From: Janthinobacterium saanense
GTDB lineage: Bacteria > Pseudomonadota > Gammaproteobacteria > Burkholderiales > Burkholderiaceae_D
Direction of reading: 5' to 3'
DNA length: 64,000 bases
Assembly: GCF_014200675.1 (NCBI RefSeq)
Contig: NZ_JACHCI010000016.1
Span: 1 to 64,000, forward strand
Position 1 is the first letter of the stretch, and each line of letters opens with the position of its first letter. The notes below the pieces were generated by a model. It worked only from the letters and a program-made list of their open reading frames with translations. It did not search any database and had not been told where the DNA came from. Both the position numbers and the translations under genes were made by a program. Positions 1,740 through 39,407 of the stretch are shown piece after piece.

Positions 1740-4535
1740 TTATTTCGAGACACTTTCAAGGCTGATAACAGTCGCAAAATCCGGGCTGGCGACGGTGCTA
1801 TACGGCGGCAGGACGCGGGCTTTTTGGGGGATCAGGAAGCGCTTGAGCATCAGTTCCAGCATCTGCTCGGCGGGCACCGGGCGCGACACATAATAGCCCT
1901 GCACCTCGTTGCATTGCAGCGCGCGCAAGATCTCCAGCTGCTCCGCCGTTTCCACGCCTTCGGCCACCACGCTCATGCCCAGCGCATGCGCCATCGACAA
2001 AATCGCGCGCACGAACACTTCGCCCTGCTCCGAACGCCCCAGCTCCATGGTGAAGGCGCGGTCGATCTTCAAGCCATCCATGGCAAACTTCTGCAACTGC
2101 GACAGCGAGGAATAACCGGTGCCGAAATCGTCGACCAGCAGCCGCACGCCCAGCGCGCGTATCGCCGCCAGCTGTTCCACGGCGCGGTTCTGTTCATCCA
2201 TCATGGCCGATTCCGTGATCTCGACTTCGATCAGGCGCGCCTCGATGCGATGGCGGGCCAGGGCAGACGCCAGCACTTCGTGTACGTCGCCGCGGCCGAA
2301 CTGGCGCGCCGAGACGTTGATCGAGACCGGCACCAGCTCCATGCCATAGCCCTTCCAGCGCGCCATCTGCTGGCAGACTTTTTCAATCACCACCTCGCCC
2401 AGCTGCGATATCAGGCCGCTGCTCTCGGCCACGGCGATGAATTCCAGCGGCGGCACCATGCCGTGCAGCGGATGCATCCAGCGCACCAGCGCCTCCATGC
2501 TGCACAGCTGGCCACTCATGGCGTCCACGCGCGGCTGGTAGACAACCAGGAACTGATCCTGCTCCAGCGCCGTCACCAGGCTTTGCTCCAGTTCGCGCCG
2601 GTTGCGGATGGTTTCAAACAGTTCGGGCTGGAAGAAACGGTGATGGCCCTTGCCCGCCGCCTTCACGGCATACATGGCGATGTCGGCATTCTTCAGCAGC
2701 ACGTCCGTCTCGCCGCCATCGCGCGGATACAGGCTGATGCCGATCGAGGCGCCCATCTTGTGCCGCTCGACACCGAGATAAAACGGTTCATCGAAAGCGA
2801 GGGCGATGCGCTGCGCCACCTGCTCGGCGCGCTCCTCGTCTTCCATCGGGTCGAGGATGACGATAAATTCATCGCCGCCCAGGCGCGCCACATGGTCGCC
2901 CGGCCGCAGCACGGCTTTCAGGCGCAGCGAGGCAGCGCGCAGCACCTTGTCGCCCTGCGCGTGGCCTTGCGTGTCATTGATATCCTTGAAACCATCGAGA
3001 TCGATGAACAGCAGCGCCAGCATATGGCCATCGATGGCCGCGCGCGCCAGGGCATTGGGCAGGAATTGCTGCAGCCAGTGGCGATTCGGCAGCCCCGTCA
3101 AGCCATCTTCATTGGCCAGGCGGCGCAAATCCTGTTCGTGTTCCTTGGCCGTGCTGATGTCTTGCAAGGTGACCGCCAGGCGCTCGCCGCTGCGCACCAG
3201 GCGCCGGCGTATCCAGCGCAGCTCGAATGGATTTCCCTCCTGCAGCTCGATTTCTTCTTCTGAAAAACCGGACTCCATGGCGGCCCGGTAGCTCTGCATC
3301 AGGTCGCGGAAATACTGTTCGTGCGCGCGCTCCTGCATGCGCATGCCCAGCAGCTGGTCGCGCCGCACGCCAAAGAAACGGGCGCCCGGTTCATTGCAGT
3401 CGACGATCTCGAAATCGATGATCGCGCCCGCCTCATCGCGCAGCGCGGCAATGATGTAAAAGCCGTCGCTGGTGCCTTCGGTGGCCATGCGATAGGCATT
3501 GCGCACGCCCGCCGACAAATGATGGCGCCAGGCCAGGCGCAGCGACAGCATGGTGGCGATCACGGTAAAGGCCAGCAGCAGCAGGCTGACGGCCGCCGCG
3601 ATCCACATATAGATGGTGCGCGTTTCTTCGTAGGGATGCAGTACTTCCGCATCGCTCAGGCCCACCACGGCCGTGAAAGGATAGGCTTTCAAGGCTTGCC
3701 AGCCCACGTAGCGGCCTTGCTTGTCGGAAAACGCCACCCGGCCACCCGACTGCATGGAGCCGCTATCCGTTTCCAGGAAACTGGTGTCAAAGAAAGGCGT
3801 GCCCTGCACCGGCAAGACGCGTGTACCAAGGCGCGTGCTGAACAGCTCGCCCTCTTCACCCACCACGGCCGACATGCCCAGTTTGCCGAAATTGACGCTG
3901 TCGTAGAACTCTGCAAAATAGGCCGAATGGATGGAAATGAGCAGCACGCCGTCAAAATTGCCATCCGCATCTTCCAGCCGGCGCGTGAAATGCACGAGGG
4001 TATTGTCATCGCCCTTGGCCGCGCCTTCATTGGCACGCCCCAGACCGATGCGCAAGGCGCTGGAATTGCTGCGCCAGTGACGCAGCAGGAAATCGCTGCG
4101 CTCGCTGGTGCGCAAACGCTGCAAGGGCGCCGTGGCAGTGACGGCGTGTCCCTTGCGGTCGAGGATGGCCACAAGGGCAAATTGCGGCAAGGCATACATG
4201 CCCTGCGTCTTCAATTCATCGAGCCGCAGCTTCCCCTGTGATTTTTCCCACTCATATTTCAGTTGCAAGGTCAGCTGGTCCATCTGTTCCAAGGTGCGCA
4301 GCAGATACTGGCTGTAGGCCTTCGAGAGCGAGGCAACGCTGTCGAGCGCCTGCTGCTGCGCCACCTTCTTTTCCGCTTCCAGCTGCACCAAAGTGGCGGT
4401 CCACAGCACGGCGCACAGGGCCAGGCAGAGCAAAGGCCATGCCAGGATCAGACGCAGATTGGCCTTGAGGAAATCAGTCCGGCTCATTTCCACCACGGCA
4501 GCGTTATTATTATTCACAAATTGTCGCAAGAACAT
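1740..4535 (-). CDS. Membrane GGDEF-EAL cyclic-di-GMP protein with Cache-like sensor and PAS
   Basis: Makes and/or degrades the second messenger c-di-GMP at the inner membrane. Order of domains in 931 residues: transmembrane helix about 28-50, periplasmic Cache-like sensor about 51-305, second helix about 309-335, PAS about 345-465, GGDEF about 475-640, EAL about 650-905. The GGDEF motif is intact (554-558) with an RxxD inhibitory I-site five residues before it (545-548). The EAL motif (682-684, MEALVRW), DDFGTGYSSL (803-812) and EGVET are also intact, so both activities are possible; which dominates is unknown. A start at Met17 (MSRTDFL) is an alternative. It stands alone with its own terminator. 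Confidence 0.92.
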   Translation of the reverse strand: MFLRQFVNNNNAAVVEMSRTDFLKANLRLILAWPLLCLALCAVLWTATLVQLEAEKKVAQQQALDSVASLSKAYSQYLLRTLEQMDQLTLQLKYEWEKSQGKLRLDELKTQGMYALPQFALVAILDRKGHAVTATAPLQRLRTSERSDFLLRHWRSNSSALRIGLGRANEGAAKGDDNTLVHFTRRLEDADGNFDGVLLISIHSAYFAEFYDSVNFGKLGMSAVVGEEGELFSTRLGTRVLPVQGTPFFDTSFLETDSGSMQSGGRVAFSDKQGRYVGWQALKAYPFTAVVGLSDAEVLHPYEETRTIYMWIAAAVSLLLLAFTVIATMLSLRLAWRHHLSAGVRNAYRMATEGTSDGFYIIAALRDEAGAIIDFEIVDCNEPGARFFGVRRDQLLGMRMQERAHEQYFRDLMQSYRAAMESGFSEEEIELQEGNPFELRWIRRRLVRSGERLAVTLQDISTAKEHEQDLRRLANEDGLTGLPNRHWLQQFLPNALARAAIDGHMLALLFIDLDGFKDINDTQGHAQGDKVLRAASLRLKAVLRPGDHVARLGGDEFIVILDPMEDEERAEQVAQRIALAFDEPFYLGVERHKMGASIGISLYPRDGGETDVLLKNADIAMYAVKAAGKGHHRFFQPELFETIRNRRELEQSLVTALEQDQFLVVYQPRVDAMSGQLCSMEALVRWMHPLHGMVPPLEFIAVAESSGLISQLGEVVIEKVCQQMARWKGYGMELVPVSINVSARQFGRGDVHEVLASALARHRIEARLIEVEITESAMMDEQNRAVEQLAAIRALGVRLLVDDFGTGYSSLSQLQKFAMDGLKIDRAFTMELGRSEQGEVFVRAILSMAHALGMSVVAEGVETAEQLEILRALQCNEVQGYYVSRPVPAEQMLELMLKRFLIPQKARVLPPYSTVASPDFATVISLESVSK

Positions 4536-9087: not shown

Positions 9088-9129
9088 TGGCGGGCATAGC
9101 GTTCCGCGCCCACCAAACTTTATGAATCA

Positions 9130-9615
9130 ATGAGCTTACTGACCATCATCGTCGCCACCGACCAGCAAGGCGGCATCGGCATCAACAACACCTTGCCATG
9201 GAAGTTGCCGGAAGACCTGGCCCACTTCAAGCGCCTGACCACCGGCCACCCGATCATCATGGGCCGCAAGACTTTTGATTCGATTGGCCGGCCGCTGCCG
9301 AACCGCCGCAACATCGTCATCACGCGCAATGCCGAATGGCGCCATGACGGCGTGGAAACGGTCGCTTCGGTGGAGGCAGCGGTCGCCCTGCTGGACGGCG
9401 CTGAAGGTTTTGTGATCGGCGGCGCCGAGATTTACAAACAGTCGCTGGGCTTGACGCAGCGCTTGATCGTGACGGAAATCGGCCAGACTTACGCTTGCGA
9501 TGCGTTTTTCCCCGCCATCGATCATGCCGAGTGGCAAGAAACGGCGCGTGAAGCGCACGTGGCGGCCAATTCCGGCTTGCCGTATGCCTTTGTTACCCTG
9601 CAAAGAAAAGCCTGA
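9130..9615 (+). CDS. folA: Dihydrofolate reductase
   Basis: Reduces dihydrofolate to tetrahydrofolate with NADPH. It is the trimethoprim target and metabolic partner of thyA. The 161-residue length matches chromosomal DHFRs. Motifs seen are GGIGINNTLPWKLPEDL (substrate loop with the catalytic acidic residue in PEDL), the NADPH-binding MGRKTFDSIGRPLPNR, and GFVIGGAEIY. No clear ribosome binding site precedes the ATG. A four-codon frame (ATG AAT CAA TGA, 9122-9133) overlaps the start by four bases. Confidence 0.97.
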   Translation: MSLLTIIVATDQQGGIGINNTLPWKLPEDLAHFKRLTTGHPIIMGRKTFDSIGRPLPNRRNIVITRNAEWRHDGVETVASVEAAVALLDGAEGFVIGGAEIYKQSLGLTQRLIVTEIGQTYACDAFFPAIDHAEWQETAREAHVAANSGLPYAFVTLQRKA

Positions 9616-23671: not shown

Positions 23672-23846
23672 TTGCATTCCTTTAAGGATGAGGTCTGGAG
23701 CGTAGCATGAAAGCGCTGGATTCCATGTCCATAGCGCTGGCAATCGGAATCACCTATATACACATCAATCCATGAATGCAACTCAAATGCCACAATGATT
23801 CATATTAATTCATTGACATATTATTTATCTGGATCAAGAAATTTCA

Positions 23847-25004
23847 ATGGTAATCGTATTTATTTCCTACTTTTCAGCCATTCTTGCAATAAGCGGGAGC
23901 ATTTATCTTGCATTGAAATTTCACAAGTCTTGGTATGCTCCTCTTAAAGAATTGGCGATTAAACCAGAATTTGGCGGCGTCAATATATTTCTAGGCGCCA
24001 TGGTGGGTTACCTTGGATCGCATTTCGACAAGGAAATTTACAACGCCACCGGCCGTTTATATCTACCCGCCGACTGGACCGGTGGAACACCATGGATTAC
24101 AGGTCAATTCACCGTCGTTCCTGTTTTCTTCTGGATCCTGGTGATACTCACCGTGATCGCATTTATTGCTACCGTTTCCGCCCAAGGTTCCGCGGCTGCC
24201 GAGATCAACACCGAGTTTCGCTCTTCATTCAAGCGTTTGTTCACGATGCCGCCGAATGGTTTTTTGGACGAATATCGCAAGCTTGCCTTGGGAAGTGGCC
24301 GGCTGGTGATGGATTTGCCGCCGACCTTGCGGCGCAGCCAGCACCAGGAGCTCATCCGTACACTGCTGCTTTCGATTTGCAATGTGGTCAAGGAATACGA
24401 TAGCGGGCGAAATTCCTGTGTCTACGGATGCAATATCATGCTGTACTTTGGCACGGGAAGCAGCAGGTTCAACACCAGGTGCAAGGCACTCAGGAAGAAT
24501 ATCCGATGCATAGAGCGGGGCGTGGCGCTTGAGAATTTGGCCGGCGTGCTGGAACTACAACGTATTTTAAGTATCTCCAGTCATACGGGTGTCAATCCCG
24601 ATAAGAGGCTGCAGAAATTGGCATTGCCCATACCGATGACGAGTGGCCCACTCGATGTACTTGATTATATCCCTGGTGCACCATTGACATTTGCAACAGG
24701 CAAACCTGCTGCCTATCGCAGTCAAAAAGATTTGATTGAGAAAGTAGAGAAAAATAGAAGGTTCTCTTCCAATGTACTCGATGATCTGGTCGCCACACTC
24801 AATGCGCAAAATGAATCCGTCCAGGCCGTTATCTGCATACCTTTATACAGTTACTATACTTCGGGTGTACCAGAGGCAATAGGAATATTGAATATTCATA
24901 AGAACATTGTTGATGAGCATTTTGAAGCGAAGTATAAAAACTTTGGCGATTTATTGGCGCCCCTGGTACAGAACCTGGAGCGCGCGGTCTCGCTGTATCC
25001 CTGA
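23847..25004 (+). CDS. Unknown membrane protein with cytoplasmic GAF-like C-terminal region
   Basis: Not recognised. 385 residues: hydrophobic helix about 3-24, a second weak hydrophobic region about 43-58, a third helix about 93-115, then a cytoplasmic remainder. The C-terminal part (about 190-380) has the strand-helix rhythm of a GAF-type sensor (VQAVICIPLYS, EAIGILNIHKN), preceded by a Cys-containing stretch. No catalytic motif was found. Base composition is clearly more AT-rich than flanking core genes, and the ribosome binding site is weak. A 62-residue gene follows 34 bp downstream. It looks like an accessory sensor of unknown role; a defence-type function is possible but unsupported. 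Confidence 0.55.
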   Translation: MVIVFISYFSAILAISGSIYLALKFHKSWYAPLKELAIKPEFGGVNIFLGAMVGYLGSHFDKEIYNATGRLYLPADWTGGTPWITGQFTVVPVFFWILVILTVIAFIATVSAQGSAAAEINTEFRSSFKRLFTMPPNGFLDEYRKLALGSGRLVMDLPPTLRRSQHQELIRTLLLSICNVVKEYDSGRNSCVYGCNIMLYFGTGSSRFNTRCKALRKNIRCIERGVALENLAGVLELQRILSISSHTGVNPDKRLQKLALPIPMTSGPLDVLDYIPGAPLTFATGKPAAYRSQKDLIEKVEKNRRFSSNVLDDLVATLNAQNESVQAVICIPLYSYYTSGVPEAIGILNIHKNIVDEHFEAKYKNFGDLLAPLVQNLERAVSLYP

Positions 25005-25038
25005 TTAGTGCTATACTTTTCTTGAAGGAGGGTTTGTT

Positions 25039-25227
25039 ATGGAAATCACAATTCCCGTAAGTAATGCGGCATACTTTGATCAATTACTGAAATCCATCGG
25101 GCGTGAACTGACTGCGCCGCGCTCGGAGCGCATGGAGCTCGTCGCTGTGAAAAGCGAGGCTGGCGGCTTCATCATGGAAAGATTGCCAGTGAACGCCAAG
25201 GATATTTATCGCGTCACTAAAGAGTGA
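25039..25227 (+). CDS. Small hypothetical protein
   Basis: 62 residues, no recognised family, no signal peptide or membrane helix. A strong ribosome binding site (AAGGAGG, about 25023-25030) precedes the ATG, which supports real translation. It is charged and mixed helix-strand in pattern (SERMELVAVKSEAGGFIMER). It probably forms an operon with the membrane protein gene upstream. Confidence 0.55.
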   Translation: MEITIPVSNAAYFDQLLKSIGRELTAPRSERMELVAVKSEAGGFIMERLPVNAKDIYRVTKE

Positions 25228-25272
25228 TTGCCCTCTCAATCGCTGTTCTGACCGCCTTACCCCTTGCCATGT

Positions 25273-27711
25273 CTAGTGCGCATACCAGTAGCGCGGATGA
25301 CTGGCGCGGTAAGCAGTGACCGTGATCATCTCGCCAAACTCCAGCATCAAGGCCCCAGCCTCATCCGTGCGCAAGCGCGTAATCCCCATTTCCCCATAGC
25401 GCGCATAGACTTGCGCCTTCGGGTGTTTGTAGCGGTTGCGGTGCCCAACCTGGAATATCGCCAAACTCGGGTGAACGGCAGTCAAAAAAGCGGGCGTGGA
25501 CGAAGTGCCACTGCCATGATGAGGCGCCAGCAATACATCGGCCGCCAGCTCGGTCCCCAGGCGCGCACGCAATTGCGCCTCCTGCGCCGCTTCGATATCG
25601 CCGGCCAGCAAGATCGCATGCTTGCCTGCCGTGATTTTCACCGTGCAGCTGCGGGCATTCGGCTTGAGCGATTTATCATCGTGACTGGCCGCCAGCGGGT
25701 GCAGCATTTCGAAACGCACGCCCTCCCACTCCCAGCTTTGGCCGGCCGCGCAATGCAGATAGGGCTTGCCCAGCTTGTGCTGCGCCACGACGGCCTGGTG
25801 ACCGCTGGTCAAGGACGAGGCCAGCCAGCCCACGGGTATGTTTTCGAGCAAGGATACGGCGCCGCCCGCATGGTCTGCATCGCTGTGCGAAATGATCAGG
25901 CCATCGAGCTTGCCGATTCCCCGCGCACGCAGATAGGGCACGATCACCCGGCTGCCGCCGTCGGAATCCATGCCATACGCGGGGCCCGTGTCATACAGCA
26001 AACGGTGTCCATGCGTTTCAATCAATAGCGCCATGCCCTGCCCCACGTCAAAAGCCGTGACCCATAACTGGCCAGGCGCCGGGGTGCTTGGGAAGGCAGT
26101 CATCAAAGGCAGCCAGCTCAGCATCCCCAGCCAGCGATGCGGCCAGCCGCGCGGCGCCAGCAGCCACAAGGTGCCAAACAAGGCCCAGGCAAAACTCCAC
26201 CACGGCGGCGCGGGCGCAGTCCAGACGGCAAACGGACCAATACTGAGCCACTCCAGCAGCTGCACCAGCAGTTGCACGATCAAGTGCGCCAACAGCAGCA
26301 GCCAGCCGGACAATGGCGCCGGCAACAGGCTGGCAGACAATGACAAGGGCGCCACCACCAGACTGACCAGGGGAATCGCCACGGCATTGGCGACCGGCGA
26401 CACCAGCGACACTTGCGAGAACAGCAGCATGGTCAAGGGCACCAGCCCCACCGTCACCACATATTGCGTATGCGCACCCAAGGCCAATTCCGCCCGCAAA
26501 CGCTGCCAGCGGCTGGCCTCCGGGGCCGCCGGCGCCGGTATGCGCCCCACGCTGGCGTACAGTATCGTGGCCACCGCCCCGAACGACAGCCAGAAACCGG
26601 GCCACAGCACGGCCCAGGGATCCAGCAGCACCACCACGCCCAGCGCCAGGCACAGCACATGAAACACGCTGGTGATGCGCCCCGTCCACAAGGCGATGGC
26701 GACCACCATCAACATATATAAGGTGCGCTGCGCCGGCACGCCAAAACCGGCCAGCAGCACATACAGCAAGGCCGCCACGGCGCCCGCCAGCGCCGCCACT
26801 TTTTGCGCCGGCAGCAGCAAGGGCAATTGCCATCCCGTAAAAAACGAGCGCCGCCACAAGACGCCCGCCGCCAGCGCGACCAGCCCCGCGATCATGGTGA
26901 TATGCAAGCCGGAGATGGAAATCAAATGACTCACGCCCGTGCGGTTGAACACTTGCCAGTCCGACTGCGGTATCGCCCGCTGGTCCCCCACCACCAGCGC
27001 CACGATCACGCCGACATAGGGCTTGCCCTGCAAGCTGCGTTCTATCCGCGTGCGCACGGCTGCCCGGCACGCTTCCACAATGTTAGCGAAACCCGGCACA
27101 AAATCGGTCAAGCGTACATTTGGTGTATCCGCCCGTGGCTGCGGCCGCACATACCCCGTGGCGCGCACGCCCTGCTCCAGCAGCCACACCTCATAATCAA
27201 AGCCCATCGGGTTCGCATTGCCGTGGGGACGCTGCAGCCGCACCGTCAACTGCCAGCGTTCCCCCGGCTGCACATCACCCACCTCATTCGTCACCTCATC
27301 GCGAAACCCTTTGTACCAGGACAAGGCAATCAGCGGCGGCACTGGCGCCCCCACCGCCTTTTCCACGACAAAGTTAAAACGCACACCCTGCTCGAAGTGA
27401 TATGGCAGGCTGGCGATGGTGCCGATGACGGTGATATCGCGGCCTTCGTCGGCCAGCGCCAATTGGGGAGCGAGAGCGAGTTGGGCCAGCCAGGCGGCCC
27501 AGAAGAAGCCGAGGATGATGCCGCTTGTCAATCCCGAAAGCAGGCGCAGCGAAGCATGCTGGTGGCGCAGTGCGTATCCGGCTAACAGACAGGCCAGGCA
27601 GGCGACTGCCAGCGTGGTTCCGGCATGGGCAGGCAGCGCCGCCTGCGTCTGCAGCCAGTAAGCGCCAGCGGCGAAGCCGAGGATGAAGGTGGGCATGGCG
27701 GGTGTAGTCAC
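25273..27711 (-). CDS. comEC: ComEC/Rec2 DNA-uptake channel protein
   Basis: Inner-membrane channel that carries single-stranded DNA into the cytoplasm during natural transformation. 812 residues, the usual full length. N-terminal hydrophobic segments, then a DUF4131 region (about 30-200), the polytopic Competence domain (about 230-510, with HLISISGLHITMIAGL), and a C-terminal metallo-beta-lactamase-like domain (about 530-790) with SHSDADHAGG, LLAGDIE and LAPHHGS metal-binding motifs. The annotated start is GTG at 27711; ATG at 27696 is equally plausible. The first 740 bp and the 208 bp upstream are present a second time at 28537-29485. Confidence 0.95.
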   Translation of the reverse strand: MTTPAMPTFILGFAAGAYWLQTQAALPAHAGTTLAVACLACLLAGYALRHQHASLRLLSGLTSGIILGFFWAAWLAQLALAPQLALADEGRDITVIGTIASLPYHFEQGVRFNFVVEKAVGAPVPPLIALSWYKGFRDEVTNEVGDVQPGERWQLTVRLQRPHGNANPMGFDYEVWLLEQGVRATGYVRPQPRADTPNVRLTDFVPGFANIVEACRAAVRTRIERSLQGKPYVGVIVALVVGDQRAIPQSDWQVFNRTGVSHLISISGLHITMIAGLVALAAGVLWRRSFFTGWQLPLLLPAQKVAALAGAVAALLYVLLAGFGVPAQRTLYMLMVVAIALWTGRITSVFHVLCLALGVVVLLDPWAVLWPGFWLSFGAVATILYASVGRIPAPAAPEASRWQRLRAELALGAHTQYVVTVGLVPLTMLLFSQVSLVSPVANAVAIPLVSLVVAPLSLSASLLPAPLSGWLLLLAHLIVQLLVQLLEWLSIGPFAVWTAPAPPWWSFAWALFGTLWLLAPRGWPHRWLGMLSWLPLMTAFPSTPAPGQLWVTAFDVGQGMALLIETHGHRLLYDTGPAYGMDSDGGSRVIVPYLRARGIGKLDGLIISHSDADHAGGAVSLLENIPVGWLASSLTSGHQAVVAQHKLGKPYLHCAAGQSWEWEGVRFEMLHPLAASHDDKSLKPNARSCTVKITAGKHAILLAGDIEAAQEAQLRARLGTELAADVLLAPHHGSGTSSTPAFLTAVHPSLAIFQVGHRNRYKHPKAQVYARYGEMGITRLRTDEAGALMLEFGEMITVTAYRASHPRYWYAH

Positions 27712-27919
27712 GCGCTGAAATGCACCAGTATGGGCGGCGGAGGTCGGGTATGCGCATCTTTATAGATAGCGCTTTTGACCGGGCGCAGCACGATGGTTGA
27801 TATCGTACTTGGACGGTCAAAGGCTTGCCTGTCACCTGCAAATTAACGTGCAGGTACGCTTGAGGTGAAAAATCAAGAATTACAGCAGAGGTCGTGTCTA
27901 AATGCAGAACTGACCCTGC
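26972..27919. repeat. Copy A of an approx. 950-bp direct duplication (5' comEC plus leader)
   Basis: This stretch covers the first third of comEC and about 208 bp upstream. It recurs in the same orientation at 28537-29485 with scattered mismatches and small indels. The match begins at ATCGCCCGCTGGTCCCC and fades after CAGAACTGACC. Confidence 0.9.
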
Positions 27920-27949
27920 CTTCGCGCTAGACGGGACCTTAACCGCGCC

Positions 27950-28514: not shown

Positions 28515-29276
28515 TTAATTGTCTTTCACCAGAGCAATCGCCCGCTGGTCCCCCACCACCAGCGCCACGATAACGCCGGCATACGGCTTGCCCGCCAGAC
28601 TGCGCTCTATGCGCGCACGCAAAGCCGCACGGCACGCTTCAACGACGTTACCGAAGCTGACCACAAAACTGTCCAGGCGGACATTGGGCGTATCCGCCCG
28701 GGGCTGCGGCCGCACATAACCCGTAGCGCGCACGCCCTGCTCCAGCAGCCACACCTCATAATCAAAACCCATCGGGTTCGCATTGCCGTGGGGACGCTGC
28801 AACCGCACCGTCAATTGCCAGCGTTCCCCCGGCTGCACATCGCCCACGACATTCGTCACCTCATCGCGGAAGCCCTTGTACCAGGACAAGGCAATCAGCG
28901 GCGGCACTGGCGCCCCCACCGCCTTTTCCACGACAAAGTTAAAACGCACACCCTGCTCGAAGTGATATGGCAGGCTGGCAATGATGCCGGTGACGGTAAT
29001 ATCGCGGCCTTCGTCGGCCAGGGCCAACTGTGGAGCTAACGCTAGTTGGGCCAGCCAGGCGGCCCAGAAGAAGCCGAGGATGATGCCGCCAGTGAGTGCT
29101 GAAAAAAGACGCAGCAATGCATGCTGGTGGCGCAGTGCGTATCCGGCTAACAGACAGGCCAGGCAGGCGACTACCAGCGTGGCTCCAGCATGGGCAGGCA
29201 GCGCGGCCTGCGTCTGCAGCCAGTAAGCGCCAGCGGCGAAGCCGAGGATGAAGGTGGGCATGGCGGGTGTAGTCAC
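28515..29276 (-). pseudogene. Truncated duplicate of comEC (5' part only)
   Basis: 253-residue frame nearly identical to the N-terminus of the complete ComEC (MTTPAMPTFILGF start, same DUF4131 region). It stops at the start of the Competence domain: after GDQRAIA the sequence departs to LVKDN and a stop. The channel and metallo-beta-lactamase domains are missing, so no DNA-uptake function is expected. The two copies differ by conservative substitutions (for example RSLAGKPYAGV against RSLQGKPYVGV), so the second copy is not a very recent exact duplication and may have come from a related strain. Confidence 0.9.
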
Positions 29277-29485
29277 GCGCTGAAATGCACCAGTATGGGC
29301 GGCGGAGGTCGGGTATGCGCATCTTTATAGATAGCGCTTTTGACCGGGCGCAGCACGATGGCTGATATCGTACTTGGACGGTCAAAGGCTTGCCTGTCAC
29401 CTGCAAATTAACGTGCAGCCACGCTTGAAGTGAAAAATCAAGAATTACAGCAGAGGTCGTGTCTGAATGGCAGAACTGACCCCGC
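28537..29485. repeat. Copy B of the approx. 950-bp direct duplication
   Basis: Matches 26972-27919 in the same orientation, offset 1565-1566 bp. The copies enclose about 617 bp of unique DNA carrying the DUF2188-like gene. On the right the homology ends inside a gamma-glutamylcyclotransferase-like reading frame, which has no N-terminal part next to copy A. Confidence 0.9.
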
Positions 29486-29745
29486 TTCCGCTCTCGCCCA
29501 GCCAAATCACGAACGGCATCTTCAACAGTCAACCGCTTACTCCTCGCATATGCCACGGAACAACGCTCACCGTTTATGGGGTCAATGACCAATGTGAGTG
29601 CGCCAGCCCTAGTTTTTGAAATCCGTGAAAACTCAAGCGACAAATTTGGGCCATCGAACTGCCATTCCCCACGTTGCTCATCGAATGCGGCACGTCTGTC
29701 CCAGAGCAAAGAACCCCAACCTAAGATGACAATATGTGGTGACAT
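29277..29745 (-). pseudogene. Gamma-glutamylcyclotransferase-like N-terminal fragment
   Basis: From ATG 29745 the frame reads HIVILGWGSLLWD, then DGPNLSLEFSRISKTR and ALTLVIDPINGE, which resembles the start of GGCT-fold proteins (xxxGYGSLIW signature). After about residue 90 the similarity fades as the sequence enters the DNA duplicated upstream of comEC. The frame stays open to 28939, but its second half overlaps the comEC copy in another frame and is Arg-rich nonsense. I read it as a gene fused or truncated at the duplication junction. The fragment upstream of the intact comEC (27712-27841) would be the matching 3' remnant. Confidence 0.5.
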
Positions 29746-29775: not shown

Positions 29776-31551
29776 CTATTTTCTCCAACGATTAATAACA
29801 TCAGAGAACGTTACATCTCGCCATGGAGAAACCCATTCATTTTGAACCTTTACACTCTGAGAGTGAGGTTCAGGATCTGGACGAGGCATTTTAATCACAG
29901 CAGGCAATAGAACAGCATCCCCAACAACAACACATTCCCCTGGGGCAAGATTAGGCAAGATTTCGGTAATTCCACTCGTATTGTCGGGGAATAGACGACG
30001 GACATAATTTTGATCAGCATCGTTAGTTAAACGAAGTGATATGAAATTATTGCATTGCGCAAATATTGTTTCAGATACCTCTGATGGACGCTGGCTGACG
30101 ACCATCAAGCTTAGTCCATACTTTCGTCCCTCCTTCGCTATTCGTTCAAGAGATTTTTTTGAGGCACGATAAGCGGCATCATTATGACGTGGAACATAAT
30201 TATGTGCTTCTTCGCAAACCAACATAACAGGCACATCATTCAAACCTCCCTGAGAGTGCTGAAGCTTTGAGTAATGGAAACAAAAATCAAATATCAGTCG
30301 GGATACAAGACTTACCGTAATACTTAACACTTCGAACGGTATGCCACTTAAATCAATTATTGTTACATTAGCTTTATTAAGATACCCTAAAAACTGACGC
30401 ATCAATGACTCGAAATCGTTCGTTTGATAAGGAGTTCCATCGGCCTTTATATTTTTCAATAGGAAATTGAGGCGCTTGTCGGTAAGCTTCGCCTCTAGCC
30501 TAGACGCAAATCTATTAAACTCGCCATTAAACGGCCCATTTGTGGCCTTTGTTGCATTCGCTGCGGACGGTGGGACAAATGATAAAATTTTATTAAAGTA
30601 ACTATCTTTTCTGATATTGATTAAAGTGCCATCGGAAAGTTTCGGTTTATCCTCTCCCTCTAGCCGACCAATGACCTCGCGGTTCATATTTTCAATATAT
30701 TGATAAACCTCTCTTATAGAAAAATATACGGGAGTATCGTATGTAATTTCCAAAGTAGAAGGATTGTACTTTTCTTTATTGAGTATTACTGCATGCTTGA
30801 ATTGACTGACTTGGTTATGAGAATTAGATTCATTACTTTCAATAAATATGCTTTCCAACTCTTCGGAATTCATTAACCAATACGGGAGATGAAGAGTTTC
30901 CACATCAAGCCTATTGAGCGAAAAAGATTCATCAGAATGCAACGTAAAGGCGGCCGTATATTCATCATGGATATCAAACATTACTATGTGCGAATTGTTC
31001 TGCACTGCTTTATTTGAATTTTTCCTGGACTCAATACCAACTACGTCTTGTAGTATACGCGTAACGGTACATGATTTTCCTGATCCAGTAGACCCAACAA
31101 TAGCAATATGCTTGCTAAAAAATCTATTTCCATCAATTTTGTATTCAATGTCTTTATTCATTAACAAGGTGCCGAGCGTGAAATTATGCTGAGCATCATT
31201 CGCGAATATTATATCTAGAGTTTTCTCATCAGCGACATATGCTTGCTCAGTCGGAACTGGTAAAAGCAAACTGCCGCGATCAAAATTCTTGCCATCAACT
31301 AATGTACCTATCGCTTGGCACTCGACATGGAACTGCCAAACTGGAGCCACCTCTGCGGTTGCCGCTGATACGATACCCTTAATATTGCGAATTGTTGCAA
31401 TCGTGAAATCGTGATTACCTTGGGCAATTTTCAGGAAGCGGCCTACTTGCAAACCAGCTTTGTTGTTCTCGAAAATCGCAAGATCATCTATTGCAACAAC
31501 GATTGCACCGGGTGCACAAGAGAGAACTTTACCAATTTTATTCGTAGACAT
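29776..31551 (-). CDS. herA: HerA-type FtsK/HerA-superfamily ATPase of a two-gene defence system
   Basis: 591-residue HerA-like translocase ATPase. An N-terminal HAS-barrel-like beta domain (about 1-120) precedes the DUF87/RecA core. Walker A is GSTGSGKS (153-160), Walker B VMLVCEEAH (442-450), a sensor-like SQRPSEV (486-492), and an arginine-finger candidate in LRLTND (507-512). HerA proteins form hexameric rings on DNA. In prokaryotic defence they assemble with a nuclease or Sir2/DUF4297 effector. Its ATG lies 14 bp inside the upstream nuclease gene, so the two are translationally coupled. Base composition is far more AT-rich than the surrounding genome, indicating horizontal acquisition. 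Confidence 0.85.
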   Translation of the reverse strand: MSTNKIGKVLSCAPGAIVVAIDDLAIFENNKAGLQVGRFLKIAQGNHDFTIATIRNIKGIVSAATAEVAPVWQFHVECQAIGTLVDGKNFDRGSLLLPVPTEQAYVADEKTLDIIFANDAQHNFTLGTLLMNKDIEYKIDGNRFFSKHIAIVGSTGSGKSCTVTRILQDVVGIESRKNSNKAVQNNSHIVMFDIHDEYTAAFTLHSDESFSLNRLDVETLHLPYWLMNSEELESIFIESNESNSHNQVSQFKHAVILNKEKYNPSTLEITYDTPVYFSIREVYQYIENMNREVIGRLEGEDKPKLSDGTLINIRKDSYFNKILSFVPPSAANATKATNGPFNGEFNRFASRLEAKLTDKRLNFLLKNIKADGTPYQTNDFESLMRQFLGYLNKANVTIIDLSGIPFEVLSITVSLVSRLIFDFCFHYSKLQHSQGGLNDVPVMLVCEEAHNYVPRHNDAAYRASKKSLERIAKEGRKYGLSLMVVSQRPSEVSETIFAQCNNFISLRLTNDADQNYVRRLFPDNTSGITEILPNLAPGECVVVGDAVLLPAVIKMPRPDPEPHSQSVKVQNEWVSPWRDVTFSDVINRWRK

Positions 31552-32740
31552 CGGACAACCCCATCATAAATTTCAGCTCTTCGAAAGAATCAGTTCCCAA
31601 TTTTTCAACAACAACGTCCTCAGTATCTAGGCTAGAAAATATGTGATCACTGATGACGAAAATATCATCACCTTTCCGCCTATTAAGAACTACTCCATTT
31701 TGCTCCCAATTCAAAATCCTCAAAAGAAACTCTCTATTTGATGTCCCATCATTTTTTTCGGCCATAGGTTTTCGAAGGAAGCGCTCCTCAATGAAGACAT
31801 TTGCCACATAGCCGTCATTTGCTATAACGGCTTTTTGATGAAGACGAACAACAATGGAATTAAATTGTGCCTCATTTACTACCAGACAAAAAGTCGGCGT
31901 ACTTATGTGCGTCGGCTTGTAATGATATTTTTCCAAATAATCTTTGATGAACAAGACTATCTTATCGTCAAAATCCAATATTTTATTGGAGTCGATAAGG
32001 AAATATCTTAGTCTTGCATTCTTTGCCAAGTTGGGCTTCAACTGCTTTCTTCGCGCCTCTAAAATCATTTTTTTTGTTTTAAGAGACAGAGTCCATTGAC
32101 TAATCGCGGTTGTCTTAATTTCACGCAACCTATCAAGCATCTGTGCTTTCGTTATAACTCGAAGAGTTTCATCATGAAGGATACTCAATGAGGCGATCTG
32201 CTGAATTGCATTTGGATAGGCTAAGGTTTCCACTTCAACTTCACTGATTCCCTCTTTTTTTAAAAGATCGACAGCTTCAGCAACCATGATGTCGTAAGAA
32301 GGACCCAGCTTTGCCGAGAATTTCAGCAAAAACTTATCCACATCCACAACGCCATTTAATCTCGCAATATAACTCGCAAAATCTTTATTTTCAGATTTTA
32401 AAGCGGCTAAAATAATATCTTTTCCTATTTTAAAATCAGCTTCTTTTAAATTAGGGTAATGCGAAAATAGAATATATTCAACTTTTCCATTCGATTTAAA
32501 ATGAAAGTGATCAAGCATTTGCAGGAGTGGCTTAAAAACTGAGCTTGCATTAAATTTTTCTGCGGTTTCATGATATTTACATTGAATCGCTTTTATAGTA
32601 CCTGCGGAAACGACTTCAATATCCTCTATGATTCCTTCTATAGAAACCGGAGAAGTGCTATCGGCTTTCAAAATCTCAACGAGCGTTGTATTGAATTGAT
32701 ACAAGAACCCTTGAATCGTATAATCTGCGCTTCTACTCAT
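31538..32740 (-). CDS. PD-(D/E)xK-like nuclease, DUF4297/Cap4-like N-terminus, partner of HerA
   Basis: 400 residues, first gene of the operon. The N-terminus has the pattern of the dsDNA-nuclease domain found in DUF4297/Cap4 proteins: a helix with GFLYQFNTTL (11-20), acidic residues in IEGIIEDIEV (E35, E39, D40) and a strand IQCKYHE (52-58) with the Q-x-K of the PD-(D/E)xK fold. The remaining 330 residues are helix-rich and not recognised. They may be the HerA-contacting or sensing part. With HerA this gives the organisation of the DUF4297-HerA antiphage systems, in which the nuclease degrades DNA within a HerA-containing complex. It has the same AT-rich composition as herA. Assignment of the nuclease domain is by pattern only. 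Confidence 0.7.
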   Translation of the reverse strand: MSRSADYTIQGFLYQFNTTLVEILKADSTSPVSIEGIIEDIEVVSAGTIKAIQCKYHETAEKFNASSVFKPLLQMLDHFHFKSNGKVEYILFSHYPNLKEADFKIGKDIILAALKSENKDFASYIARLNGVVDVDKFLLKFSAKLGPSYDIMVAEAVDLLKKEGISEVEVETLAYPNAIQQIASLSILHDETLRVITKAQMLDRLREIKTTAISQWTLSLKTKKMILEARRKQLKPNLAKNARLRYFLIDSNKILDFDDKIVLFIKDYLEKYHYKPTHISTPTFCLVVNEAQFNSIVVRLHQKAVIANDGYVANVFIEERFLRKPMAEKNDGTSNREFLLRILNWEQNGVVLNRRKGDDIFVISDHIFSSLDTEDVVVEKLGTDSFEELKFMMGLSDVYE

Positions 32741-33109
32741 ATGACGAGCCTAAGGAAAAGTGATTTCTAAAGGCGGTTTGCCTTGAGATTGAGAGGTTTC
32801 ATTGTGCCACAAATAGTTTCCAAAAAATATTATTTTTTTGCGAACTACTGTTTCCGTTTAAAAGCATCCATTCTGATCACGCACTGCTCATCTGCTGTTT
32901 ACAAATGTTTGCTAAATGCAATTAGAAAACATTGTGACATCTAAACAAGATGGATCGCGAGACTAAACGGGGACTAGCATGTGGAATATGCCCTCCCCAA
33001 TCACCCCCACAATTTTTTATCCCCGACCGCAACTTCCCCTCCCCCTCCGTCGAACCGAAGGAAATGACGATCAACAGATAGTCATCCAACCTTACAAATG
33101 GAGTTCACA
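32741..33109. other. Intergenic region between defence operon and peroxiredoxin operon
   Basis: About 370 bp separating two divergent operons. The left 220 bp is AT-rich like the defence genes and must hold their promoter. Around 32960-33000 the composition changes to that of the core genome, which marks a likely island edge. No integrase, tRNA or clear attachment repeat was seen. Confidence 0.6.
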
Positions 33110-36256: not shown

Positions 36257-36486
36257 GCGGGGCGATACAGACTTGATCGGCCATGCCGGTCCGACTCCAC
36301 CATCACAATGTTGCTCTGGCCGCTGAATAGGGGCCGCTGACCGTCATGCATTTAAATTAAAAGTGACTTGTTTGAGGTAAATCAAAACTCGGTGATCCAG
36401 TCGCCTGATCGTTCGTGATTTCATTGCATATAAGAATCTTCCGCGTACGATGCGGAAGGCCTATCGTTACTATTCAAAGGAAAATC

Positions 36487-37248
36487 ATGTACGAAAGCCA
36501 CTACACGCATCACTTTTTCCGTCTGTGGGGCGCCAGGGAAGGTACCCTTGGTTTGACACCCGAGACCGTCTTGCTTGGAAATAGCCAAAATGATTTCGAT
36601 GCCAAATTCGGTGATCTCGCAGGAAAAGCGGGACTACGTTACTTTCTGGTGGAATTCAAGTCCGACCGTGCCGGCATCGCGCAAGAAGTTGGCAGCCAGG
36701 GCAAACCACACCGGCGCGCGCTCTACGAGCATTTGCGCAAGGACAGCGATTGCCAGCAACTGGCCAGCGTAGGCCATTTTGCCGGATACCCTGAAAATGG
36801 ATTGCTGGCATTTGAACCTTACGGCCATGCCATTGCTTCTCGTCAAACACGTCCGGATATCGTCAATAACGTTCTTCTCAAGAATGATCCCTGGCATGCA
36901 CTCGACTATGCGCGCGAGCCCATCCCGTTCGGCACATTCTATGATTTACTCAATACCACCGACGACACGCTGAGCACATTGGTCCCTGGTTTCTACAGCG
37001 AGGGTATCGGCCTGCCGTTGGCAAAATTTGAAGAGTATATCCATTGCATGTACCAGCACCTGGAACAGGTTAAGGATGACGACGGCAATATCCTGTTGGG
37101 CATTACAGATCCCAAAAACCATACTTTCATTTACTTTAAAGATACTGTTCCTGAATTAATCGCCAGACTGCATGCGGCATTCAATACCTTGAGGAAAACC
37201 ATCCCTCCACGCCCAACACCACCCGCCAATCCGGCACAGAAGCCTTGA
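36487..37248 (+). CDS. Hypothetical protein, unknown
   Basis: 253 residues from ATG 36487 (AAGGAAAA precedes it). No family recognised. A segment NDFDAKFGDLAG...RYFLVEFKSDR (about 40-65) loosely recalls the D...ExK core of PD-(D/E)xK nucleases, but the rest gives no support. Later parts are mixed helix-strand with a Pro-rich tail (PPRPTPPANP). It is flanked by a 7-bp inverted repeat in its leader (36438-36458) and a 14-bp hairpin after its stop, so it looks like a single-gene unit. Confidence 0.6.
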   Translation: MYESHYTHHFFRLWGAREGTLGLTPETVLLGNSQNDFDAKFGDLAGKAGLRYFLVEFKSDRAGIAQEVGSQGKPHRRALYEHLRKDSDCQQLASVGHFAGYPENGLLAFEPYGHAIASRQTRPDIVNNVLLKNDPWHALDYAREPIPFGTFYDLLNTTDDTLSTLVPGFYSEGIGLPLAKFEEYIHCMYQHLEQVKDDDGNILLGITDPKNHTFIYFKDTVPELIARLHAAFNTLRKTIPPRPTPPANPAQKP

Positions 37249-37418: not shown

Positions 37419-39407
37419 ATGACTTCCTCCGCAGCACCTCTGAACACCCCCGCCGATATCACCGACAGCACTGAAGACCATCACGACGCCACCCTGGTCG
37501 CGGAACTGGGGGAACTGGCCGAGCATGTGCGGCTGGTGAAGATGGAGGGACGCGTGTTCGTGCGCTTTTCGGGCGTCGTCAAGGCCGGTGGCTTGCGCGT
37601 GCCGTATGCGCTGGTGCCCAGCCAGGGCGTGCTGGCGCGGCCGGCCAAGTGGCGCAAGATGGACCGCGAAGCCAAGCTGGCACTGGTGCGCGAACGCGCC
37701 AGCGCGGCCGTGTTTGAGGAACTGCGCCAGCATGTGATGGACTTCGTGGCCGATATCGCGGGCCAGTGCGAGGATGTCGATACCGACCCGATGGTGTTTT
37801 TGCATACCCTGGGCGACATGCAGACGTCCGAGCCGGCCGGCATGGTGTTCGACCGCATCCGCCAGCGTTTTACACACGCCATCGAGCGCCAGCAGGAAGA
37901 GCAGCATGCGGCGCGCACGCGCCAGAGCATCAACCTGGCCGAATACCCGGCGTCGTTCGAGATGGCGCGCCGCCTGCCGCGCCGCTTTATCGCCCTGCTG
38001 GGCCCGACAAATTCGGGCAAGACGCACCGCGCGATGGAAGCGCTGGTCAAAGCCAAGAGCGGCGTCTACCTGGCCCCCTTGCGCCTGCTGGCCCTGGAAA
38101 ATTATGAGCGCATGCAGGAAGCGGCGCCGCATGGCAAGCCGCTGGCCGTCAACCTGATCACGGGTGAAGAGCGGCGCATGGAAGACGGCGCCACCCACGT
38201 GGCCAGCACGGTGGAAATGCTGGACACAAAAACCGTGGTCGAGGTGGCCGTGATCGATGAAATCCAGATGCTGGCCGACCCGGACCGGGGCGCCGCATGG
38301 ACGGCCGCCGTCTGCGGTGCGCCGGCCCACACCGTCTATCTGGTCGGGGCGCCGGAAGCGCGGCGCGCCATCGAAGCGCTGGCCGAGCGCCTGGACTGCC
38401 CGCTGGAAGTACACGTACTAAAACGCATGGGGCCTTTGTCGATGGAGCAAACAGCCGTGCGCAAGGTGCGCAATCTGCGCCGCGGCGACGCCGTGATCGC
38501 CTTTTCGCGCCGCGAAGTGCTGATGTGGCGCGACATGATCACGGAAACGGGGCTGTCGGTCGCCACCGTCTATGGCAATCTGTCGCCGGAAGTGCGGCGC
38601 GCCCAGGCCCAGCGCTTCCGCGACGGCACGGCCGATATCGTGGTCGGCACCGATGCGCTGGCAATGGGCTTGAACATGCCGATCGCGCGCATCGTGATGA
38701 CCACCAGCGTCAAATACAATGGCCGCGAAGAAGAAGAGATTTCAGCCGCGCTGGCGCGCCAGATCGCTGGCCGCGCGGGCCGCTATGGCGTGCATGAAGA
38801 GGGCCTGGTGGCCGGCTACGACAATGAAACGCATGAAGTGATGCGCGCGCTGCTGAAGGAAAAGCTGCATCCCCTGAACACCAGCGGCTTTGCGGTGGCG
38901 CCTTCGCTCGAGCATTTGCACCGGATTTCCTCGGTGACGGGCGAACTGTCGCTGGTCAAGCTGCTGCGCCGCTTCATCCACAATATCGACGTGCCGGACG
39001 GCTTCTTCTTCCCCCGCATCACGGAAGACCAGAAAGAGCGCGCCATCTGGCTCGACTCCCTGCCGCTGTCCGTGGCCGACAAATTCACCCTGTCGCTGGT
39101 GCCGATATCGAGCAAGGTGCCGTCATTGCAAACGGCGTGGGAACACTGGGCGAAAAATCTGTCGCTCGGTAAAACGTCTACCCTGCGCCAGCACGCGTAT
39201 GGCGGCGGCACGCAAAACCTGCAGCAGGTGGAAGACACTTGCCGCTACTACTCGGCCTATGCGTGGCTCAGTTATCGTCTGCCCGAATTCTTCCCCGATA
39301 TCGAGGTGGCGCAAAACCTGTCGCGCGATGCGTCCGAACGGGTGGACTCCATCCTGCGCGCGCACAATGCGGCGTCGCGTGGACGGTCGTCGAAGAAATT
39401 CAAGTAA
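37419..39407 (+). CDS. Suv3-like superfamily 2 RNA helicase
   Basis: 662 residues. Helicase core with Walker A GPTNSGKT (195-202), Walker B VIDEIQM (near 275), and motif VI QIAGRAGRYG (near 450). The GPTNSGKTxxA and DEIQMxxDxxRGxAWT sequences are the marks of the Suv3 family, known from the mitochondrial RNA degradosome and found in various bacteria. A substantial N-terminal region (1-185) has no assignment beyond an EDxDxDP segment, and the C-terminal third contains the family's Suv3 C-terminal elements (ISSVTGELSLVKLLRRF). A role in RNA turnover is inferred. It is a single gene, convergent with the Tae4-type effector gene. Confidence 0.88.
   Translation: MTSSAAPLNTPADITDSTEDHHDATLVAELGELAEHVRLVKMEGRVFVRFSGVVKAGGLRVPYALVPSQGVLARPAKWRKMDREAKLALVRERASAAVFEELRQHVMDFVADIAGQCEDVDTDPMVFLHTLGDMQTSEPAGMVFDRIRQRFTHAIERQQEEQHAARTRQSINLAEYPASFEMARRLPRRFIALLGPTNSGKTHRAMEALVKAKSGVYLAPLRLLALENYERMQEAAPHGKPLAVNLITGEERRMEDGATHVASTVEMLDTKTVVEVAVIDEIQMLADPDRGAAWTAAVCGAPAHTVYLVGAPEARRAIEALAERLDCPLEVHVLKRMGPLSMEQTAVRKVRNLRRGDAVIAFSRREVLMWRDMITETGLSVATVYGNLSPEVRRAQAQRFRDGTADIVVGTDALAMGLNMPIARIVMTTSVKYNGREEEEISAALARQIAGRAGRYGVHEEGLVAGYDNETHEVMRALLKEKLHPLNTSGFAVAPSLEHLHRISSVTGELSLVKLLRRFIHNIDVPDGFFFPRITEDQKERAIWLDSLPLSVADKFTLSLVPISSKVPSLQTAWEHWAKNLSLGKTSTLRQHAYGGGTQNLQQVEDTCRYYSAYAWLSYRLPEFFPDIEVAQNLSRDASERVDSILRAHNAASRGRSSKKFK

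Follow-up and report, generated by a model that had tools for sequence, protein, structure and literature searches.

A probable DUF4297-HerA antiphage system beside comEC in Janthinobacterium saanense, with a transposase-linked repeat at its left seam

The window analyzed here is a stretch of 64,000 nucleotides from Janthinobacterium saanense (assembly GCF_014200675.1, contig NZ_JACHCI010000016.1), and this report concerns a two-gene cassette within it that encodes a DUF4297 nuclease and a HerA ATPase. According to the list of open reading frames (ORFs), the cassette is laid out as follows:

31538..32740, minus strand: DUF4297 nuclease gene, 400 amino acids (aa)
29776..31551, minus strand: HerA ATPase gene, 591 aa
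31538..31551, minus strand: 14 bp shared by the nuclease 3' end and the start of herA, from the ORF coordinates

The coordinates confirm the overlap described in an earlier note on this DNA, and alignments begin at the same offset in 4 of the 21 named homologues (L133, L134, L135, and L149). The GC content is 36.7% in the nuclease gene and 39.8% in the HerA gene, against 54.0-64.3% (mean 60.7%) in the other 218 overlapping ~3-kb segments of the 64 kb, which bears out the same note's remark that the composition lies far under that of the flanks and supports horizontal acquisition. A tRNA search of the window returned none, and hence no tRNA lies beside the insert within it.

Identity of the gene pair

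We assign the pair with high confidence to the DUF4297-HerA antiphage systems. The nuclease matches the PADLOC DUF4297 profile at E = 1e-36, and HerA matches PADLOC HerA at 5e-170 and NCBIfam HerA_antiphage_2 at 1.7e-184. Among structures, we take PDB 9c1m, 9c1n, and 9c5x to be the HerA-DUF complex of Rish et al. (2025, Mol Cell), and 8ziq, 8zir, and 8zit to be the DUF4297-HerA complex of Tang et al. (2025, Mol Cell; 'abortosome'). Only three PDB sequences match the nuclease at E ≤ 10, all of them DUF4297: 9c1m_A (6.9e-76), 8ziq_A (3.1e-62, residues 1-396), and 8xav_G (1.4e-16). HerA matches 9c1m_M (9.7e-228), 8ziq_M (4.5e-218), and 8xau_A (2.6e-127). The N-terminal part of the nuclease, matched by 9c1m over residues 1-129, is a PD-(D/E)xK (Cap4-like) domain, and a Foldseek search with the AlphaFold model of the nuclease places 9c1m (5e-38) and 8ziq (8e-29) at the top, with Avs3, LmuA, Hachiman, and Cap4 at lower ranks. 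The earlier description of the locus as an operon of HerA and a DUF4297/Cap4-like nuclease is upheld by these matches. Cap4 is a weak match by fold only, and neither SAVED nor CD-NTase (CBASS Cap4) was matched among the 7, 5, and 5 window proteins scanned with Pfam, PADLOC, and NCBIfam.

The residues on which catalysis is expected to depend are retained. In the nuclease, E35, E39, D40, Q53, C54, and K55 do not vary in any of the 48 aligned sequences, a set that includes the query and was chosen from the 120 listed of 1,002 matches, all at least 48% identical; the positions are exactly those at which the earlier note had placed acidic residues and a QCK motif (53-55). Its claim of intact Walker motifs in HerA also stands, as a motif scan locates Walker A (GSTGSGKS) at 153-160 and Walker B (VMLVCEEAH) at 442-450. 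HerA residues 5-591 align with 9c1m_M 2-582, spanning the N-terminal HAS domain and the C-terminal hook region, and E28, H47, and E102 align by eye with E25, H44, and E92, provided that the latter follow 9c1m_M numbering. E25, H44, and E92 are named as important for complex formation in the system of Rish et al. (review PMC12198126). A Q53A/K55A mutant of DUF4297 appears in 8XAY of An et al. 2024, and R284/K287 form the DNA-contacting basic pair of the HerA insertion in the same work (accessible part of PMC11291478). In the phmmer alignment of our HerA, a gap adjoins the R284/K287 positions; the named residues that could be mapped (Q53, K55; E28, H47, E102) are all kept.

This conservation also bears on whether the cassette might be a decayed or silent passenger, island debris in which intact reading frames no longer make a working system. 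The surroundings are scarred, with a truncated comEC copy and a truncated 88-codon ORF, and no minus-strand site is listed upstream of the nuclease start in a sigma-70 consensus scan, a kind of scan that is weak evidence. Against this, both frames are full length, the checked catalytic and contact residues are kept, and a cluster with 86% identity is found elsewhere; we regard a passenger as unlikely.

The C-terminal region of about 330 residues, which the earlier note did not recognize and thought might mark a divergent or new subtype, turns out to be a known DUF4297 region, the part that would dock on HerA. It is matched by 9c1m_A over residues 125-395 (E = 3.5e-47 for that stretch) and is included in the 8ziq_A match over 1-396, and the model ranks these same complexes first. 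A reading of the pair as a new DUF4297-HerA subtype whose C-terminal effector domain is novel would agree with both proteins lying under the NCBIfam equivalog cut-offs and with the three best same-family matches (G253, G018, and G214) being only 36-38% identical. Set against the C-terminal matches, and against the 118 of 120 listed relatives that are 48-60% identical at full length, it is very improbable, and the pair adds a member to a known, mechanistically studied kind of system rather than a new subtype.

Several observations weigh against the assignment. The nuclease reaches 148.5 bits (2.6e-43) on NCBIfam DUF4297_antiphage (NF042945), under the equivalog cut-off of 300, and HerA reaches 614.8 bits on NF042944, whose cut-off is 850; the exact NCBI equivalogs are therefore not claimed, only the wider family. 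No Pfam family matches the nuclease at E ≤ 1, so that the PF14130 check suggested in the earlier note fails on this protein; PF14130 is carried by one listed homologue, P0052. The AlphaFold model (48 sequences) has a pLDDT of 81.7 and a low pTM of 0.49, and its whole-chain superposition on 9c1m and 8ziq gives TM values of 0.4-0.5 at 15-20 Å rmsd. Only shorter chains fit closely, namely the 170-180 resolved residues of 9c5x (1.6-1.8 Å, TMt 0.89-0.90), which probably represent the C-terminal domain of DUF4297, the Foldseek output carrying no residue range. We read the poor whole-chain fit of the model as a different domain orientation. No relative was found in 50,697 phage records, and most of the 121 ORFs neighboring the homologues have no defence-model match.

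Those 121 ORFs, a set of 122 less L144:6-5849, come from 19 of the 21 named loci; AbiO, Nhi, AbiE, SoFic, and type II/IIG restriction are matched by a few of them, and 21 PADLOC families appear at E ≤ 1e-10 with one or two members each. The nuclease has 1,002 homologues at E ≤ 1e-3 among 5,112 candidates. A HerA match lies directly behind it in all 21 named-record loci found (L134 ends at a contig end), which range over Proteobacteria, Bacillus, Brevibacillus, and flavobacteria. These counts show that the pair is no product of chance. Relatives occur on 11 of 72,556 plasmid records, 7 of them predicted conjugative. Within a sample of the same family, 6 of 294 genomes match the nuclease, including its own and two weak or partial cases (G126 and G266); its own is the sample's only match within the genus.

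A housekeeping HerA-NurA end-resection pair would share the fold of HerA, and the repair models NF040937 and NF040819 match this HerA at ~5e-35; the antiphage model is nevertheless far better at 1.7e-184, the patchy occurrence of the nuclease speaks against a housekeeping role, and the partner is DUF4297, with no NurA family among its matches in Pfam, PADLOC, NCBIfam, and PDB. The partner's family already refutes this explanation, to which we give almost no credence. The earlier note had named the lack of a nuclease-fold match, or homologues in housekeeping HerA-NurA settings, as grounds for dropping its proposal; in the searches made, a nuclease-fold match was found and HerA scored best on the antiphage model, above the repair models. 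The candidate antiphage role that it proposed is supported: the pair is horizontally acquired and very likely antiphage.

Apart, DUF4297 and HerA have very low activity; they combine into a ~1-MDa complex, a HerA hexamer carrying 12 nucleases, that takes in double-stranded DNA (dsDNA), hydrolyzes ATP, cleaves dsDNA, and protects E. coli from phages (accessible part of PMC11291478; PMC12198126). The review describes the outcome as abortive infection and the trigger as unclear (PMC12198126). If the present pair follows the solved relatives, its HerA hexamer would carry two layers of nuclease subunits, twelve in all, and neither enzyme would be active alone. Assembled HerA would pump dsDNA via its pore to the nuclease domains, which would cut it without sequence specificity, leading to abortive infection. 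It is by homology that assembly, activity, and a defence role may be ascribed to the pair.

The comEC site and its occupants

The cassette lies beside comEC, and comparison with a sister genome, G300, defines its borders:

26972..27928: 5' part of comEC with upstream DNA, copy 1 of a duplication (92%), part of an intact comEC with ComEC domains by Pfam
27876..27928, plus strand: decayed second repeat copy where the first comEC 5' copy ends, from the repeat scan
28537..29492: copy 2 of the duplication, a truncated comEC fragment ending in the seam repeat, also in G300
29453..29488, plus strand: TIRtron/REP-like repeat at the left seam, core CGTGTCTGAATGGCAGAACTGACC at 29458-29481; G300 homology ends at 29488
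29482..29745, minus strand: 88-codon 5' gene remnant (VILGWGSLLWD...), cut off at the repeat and riding with the cassette
32898..32940: right seam, where G300 homology resumes (ATGCAATTAGAAAACATTGTGAC...), from the alignment; no repeat copy

The window is 83-90% identical to G300 up to 29488 and again 88% identical from 32898, and nothing between aligns. In G300, the site holds a 272-aa HamA-like protein (only 2e-5) and an 819-aa HamB-like protein (3.5e-73), a pair that we call Hachiman-like since HamB is strong and HamA is not. As the flanks align and the inserts do not, DUF4297-HerA and Hachiman are alternative occupants, and the comEC site is an apparent Janthinobacterium hotspot where defence genes are swapped. 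The comEC duplication was considered as a footprint of cassette insertion and ruled out because G300 has it with different cargo; for the same reason it is probably older than either cassette. We tentatively take the 88-codon remnant to be gamma-glutamylcyclotransferase-like; its best other tblastn match among the loci searched has E = 0.30, and the longer ORF at 28939-29745 has no family match above the curated cut-off in Pfam, PADLOC, or NCBIfam.

comEC was found in 38 of 40 genus genomes, and its upstream region was examined in 20 genus-mates. A presumably Suv3-like helicase gene, the counterpart of window gene 37419-39407, lies 0.1-2.5 kb from comEC in 18 of the 20, with a methyltransferase-like ORF (by eye) between the two in 10 of those 18. 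In G157 the interval measures 9.5 kb and holds Rhs-like ORFs (by eye) as well as a second 5' fragment of comEC; in G201 no helicase gene was seen in the stretch examined. The G157 fragment (L111) is 64% identical in protein. The thiol-peroxidase-like gene just right of the insert is present at ≥97% only in the window genome and G300 among 40 genus genomes, and the neighborhood is therefore itself variable.

Two other places in the window were noted. On the other side of comEC, 23722-25277 is missing at that place in G300 and represents a second insertion; its ORF at 23847-25004 (plus strand; 385 aa, membrane-like N-terminus, GC ~49%) has no match in Pfam, PADLOC, or NCBIfam. Adjoining the Suv3-like helicase gene, a 277-aa ORF at 36415-37248 (plus strand) likewise has no family match in these three collections.

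The seam repeat and defence-gene junctions

Both inserts start within 10 bp of the end of CGTGTCTGAATGGCAGAACTGACC, the core ending 7 bp (window) or 8 bp (G300) short of the point where homology is lost. The window's own genome, G000, carries 22 copies at ≤3 mismatches, grouped into 15 sites (reversed control, 0). Elsewhere the repeat is rare: with up to 2 mismatches allowed it occurs in 11 of 40 genus genomes, and with up to 1 in 4 of 294 family genomes, own genome included in both counts, and no match was found on plasmid records. The repeat is an imperfect palindrome or hairpin with a DNA fold of -5.5 kcal/mol; the fold z is -2.5 as a 32-mer (3 of 200 shuffles as good) and -1.95 as a 37-mer (12 of 200). 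One G000 contig links it to a transposase: a Y1_Tnp match of 4.2e-11 at C38:1651-2511, an IS200-like transposase gene, lies between outward-facing copies (1510 and 1541 on the minus strand, 2522 on the plus strand), and of three Y1_Tnp matches in G000 only this one has repeat copies. Its relatives are named transposase or RayT and come from Janthinobacterium, Massilia, and others. The ends of such elements, TIRtrons, have the consensus GGGGWSAS (accessible part of PMC3733652). In the window copy and others, the reverse complement of the repeat starts GGGGTCAG, which fits this consensus; some copies have lost the motif. On our main reading, the cassette was inserted next to comEC, at the place that the Hachiman-like system occupies in G300, and its left end adjoins a TIR-type repeat belonging to an IS200-like tyrosine transposase. 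At L162, L154, L185, and L161, short direct duplications that vary between sites follow right after the repeat end, for example GACCCTCGCTTCC twice at C13:123.2 kb.

Copies of the repeat are found at the following genes:

G000 C3:249 kb: retron II-A (RT 1.9e-116, NDT 1e-76), borders repeat
G000 C13:69 kb: Dazbog DzbA/DzbB (9.6e-45, 2.7e-7), borders repeat
G000 C31: cytosine methyltransferase (5.6e-107) and PD-Lambda-5_A-like gene (1.2e-12), border repeat
G000 C2:0.3-4.1 kb: nSTAND protein and TIR/NDT-like gene (weak: 1.3e-9, 5e-9), inward-facing copies
G000 C13:120.9 kb: CAP12-TIR C-terminal fragment (1e-34), its end overlapping a copy
G000 C35: CdiA_C (1.2e-9), borders repeat
G300: Kiwa (KwaA 8e-63, KwaB 2.7e-55), between inward-facing copies

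Genes bordering the remaining G000 copies were not recognized as defence. With each cassette counted once and a cut-off of E ≤ 1e-30, defence genes are found at no fewer than 4 of 14 repeat sites (window excluded) and at 0 of 20 control stretches (Fisher p = 0.022). Four is a minimum, as the pooled scan of 59 flank ORFs (of 61, two alternative starts being left out) gives 25 of 138 families, without ORF names. The controls, each of 5 kb, were put through the same ORF procedure, and the families of 4 of their 85 ORFs match PADLOC at E ≤ 1e-8 (best 1.4e-19). For copies outside G000, 8 chosen proteins from 6 of 14 stretches were scanned, any judgment on the flanks in L186, L189, and L192-L197 being by eye.

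Three further repeat sites could be compared between sister genomes. At the retron locus (L154), homology to G300 ends at 4180, within the repeat at 4159-4182, and is back at 9135, 18 bp past a second repeat (9094-9117); G300 has insertion sequence (IS)-like and bacteriocin-export-like ORFs there (by eye), with no repeat at the right junction. In G237, homology at this locus ends at 3935 inside another copy (3930-3953), and an RmrA gene (9.5e-147) is found. At the Dazbog locus, G237 has no insert, with homology breaks at 3626 and 6107; the repeat starts at 3674, 48 bp inside. The G300 break lies at 3502, 172 bp before the repeat, and G300 carries there Sir2-HerA (L222:2631-5418, minus strand, C2; SIR2 6.8e-133, HerA 2.3e-236), with no repeat within 5 mismatches. 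At the Kiwa locus, the orthologous G000 flank runs into the C13 repeat cluster with CAP12-TIR and type VI secretion system-like ORFs (the latter by eye). A composite transposon was also considered; the inward-facing pairs at Kiwa (L185) and nSTAND (L158) fit it, and it was rejected since the cassette and Dazbog each come with a single copy and L222 with none.

It is possible that the repeats help to swap defence cassettes. In its stronger form, we advance as a tentative and rather doubtful proposal that TIRtron-end repeats are exchange seams for Janthinobacterium defence cassettes, swapped by the transposase or by repeat recombination. On this proposal, repeat ends would be where DUF4297-HerA, Hachiman, Kiwa, retron II-A, Dazbog, and others are joined to host DNA and take one another's place. 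The following points count against such seams. A search for the repeat at the right seam of the cassette found none, and hence the cassette is not bounded by repeats on both sides; the Sir2-HerA site lacks the repeat as well, and the Dazbog breakpoints are 48-172 bp off. In G244, genes that look ordinary by eye (mutL-, miaA-, dnaE2-like, and others) surround 4 of 5 variant copies, and the remaining one (L194) is near ORFs that resemble the C13 cargo. The control stretches were hand-picked at round coordinates on ten G000 contigs and match the repeat sites neither in AT-richness nor in accessory content; it may simply be in such regions that both defence genes and small mobile repeats tend to lie.

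How defence systems pass from one chromosome to another is poorly understood where no phage, plasmid, or integrase is evident. Here, several unrelated systems in sister genomes have, at or close to their junctions, a short repeat whose transposase can be named, and this offers a testable mechanism. With modest confidence, we consider repeat-marked swap sites worth following. The repeat could also help to find undescribed defence genes, with two candidates in L191 and L158. At L191:2116-7020 (plus strand, G295 C7), a candidate undescribed defence gene of 40% GC, with an adjacent repeat copy facing it, encodes a 1634-aa protein that has weak nSTAND3/AAA matches (5e-5, under the cut-off) and no PADLOC match at 1e-3. 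L158:502-4100, which is G000 C2:502-4100, holds an 829-aa nSTAND_NTPase5 protein, with no PADLOC match at 0.01, and genes of 123 and 236 aa (TIR/NDT-like effector) between inward-facing repeats. RelA/SpoT-domain proteins matching the PADLOC candidate PDC-S33 (2.9e-116; 1.1e-17) stand beside copies at L198:182-1303 and L188:1631-2653 (G146 and G221).

Comparison with known systems

The pair is a complete relative of two solved complexes. With 9c1m/9c1n/9c5x it shares a two-gene organization, matches to both proteins over the ranges given above, and the conserved E25/H44/E92; the nuclease identity is ~35% (Foldseek), the 9c1m nuclease is longer (436 aa), and the present pair is known from sequence. 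With 8ziq/8zir/8zit, both chains match near full length, at a nuclease identity of ~31%. The pair is nearer to these systems than to the one that An et al. described in 2024 (8xav, among 8XAU-8XAY; accessible part of PMC11291478), which has the same two genes and motif, with Q53/K55 under the same numbers, and is more distant, the nuclease matching over residues 1-274 only and HerA at 2.6e-127. Sir2-HerA has the HerA motor in common, and its effector is SIR2, unlike the nuclease here.

The repeat shares with TIRtrons/TIRYT the inverted repeats around an IS200-like tyrosine transposase and the GGGGWSAS-type end, whereas neither defence cargo nor a cassette boundary is mentioned in the accessible part of PMC3733652. 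Among the open-access matches listed, no title or abstract start states that RAYT, REP, or TIR repeats bound defence systems. In core defence hotspots, defence systems are exchanged at fixed chromosomal sites (accessible part of PMC10250203); the sites described here have this fixed-site exchange in common with them and differ in the transposase-linked repeat at several seams.

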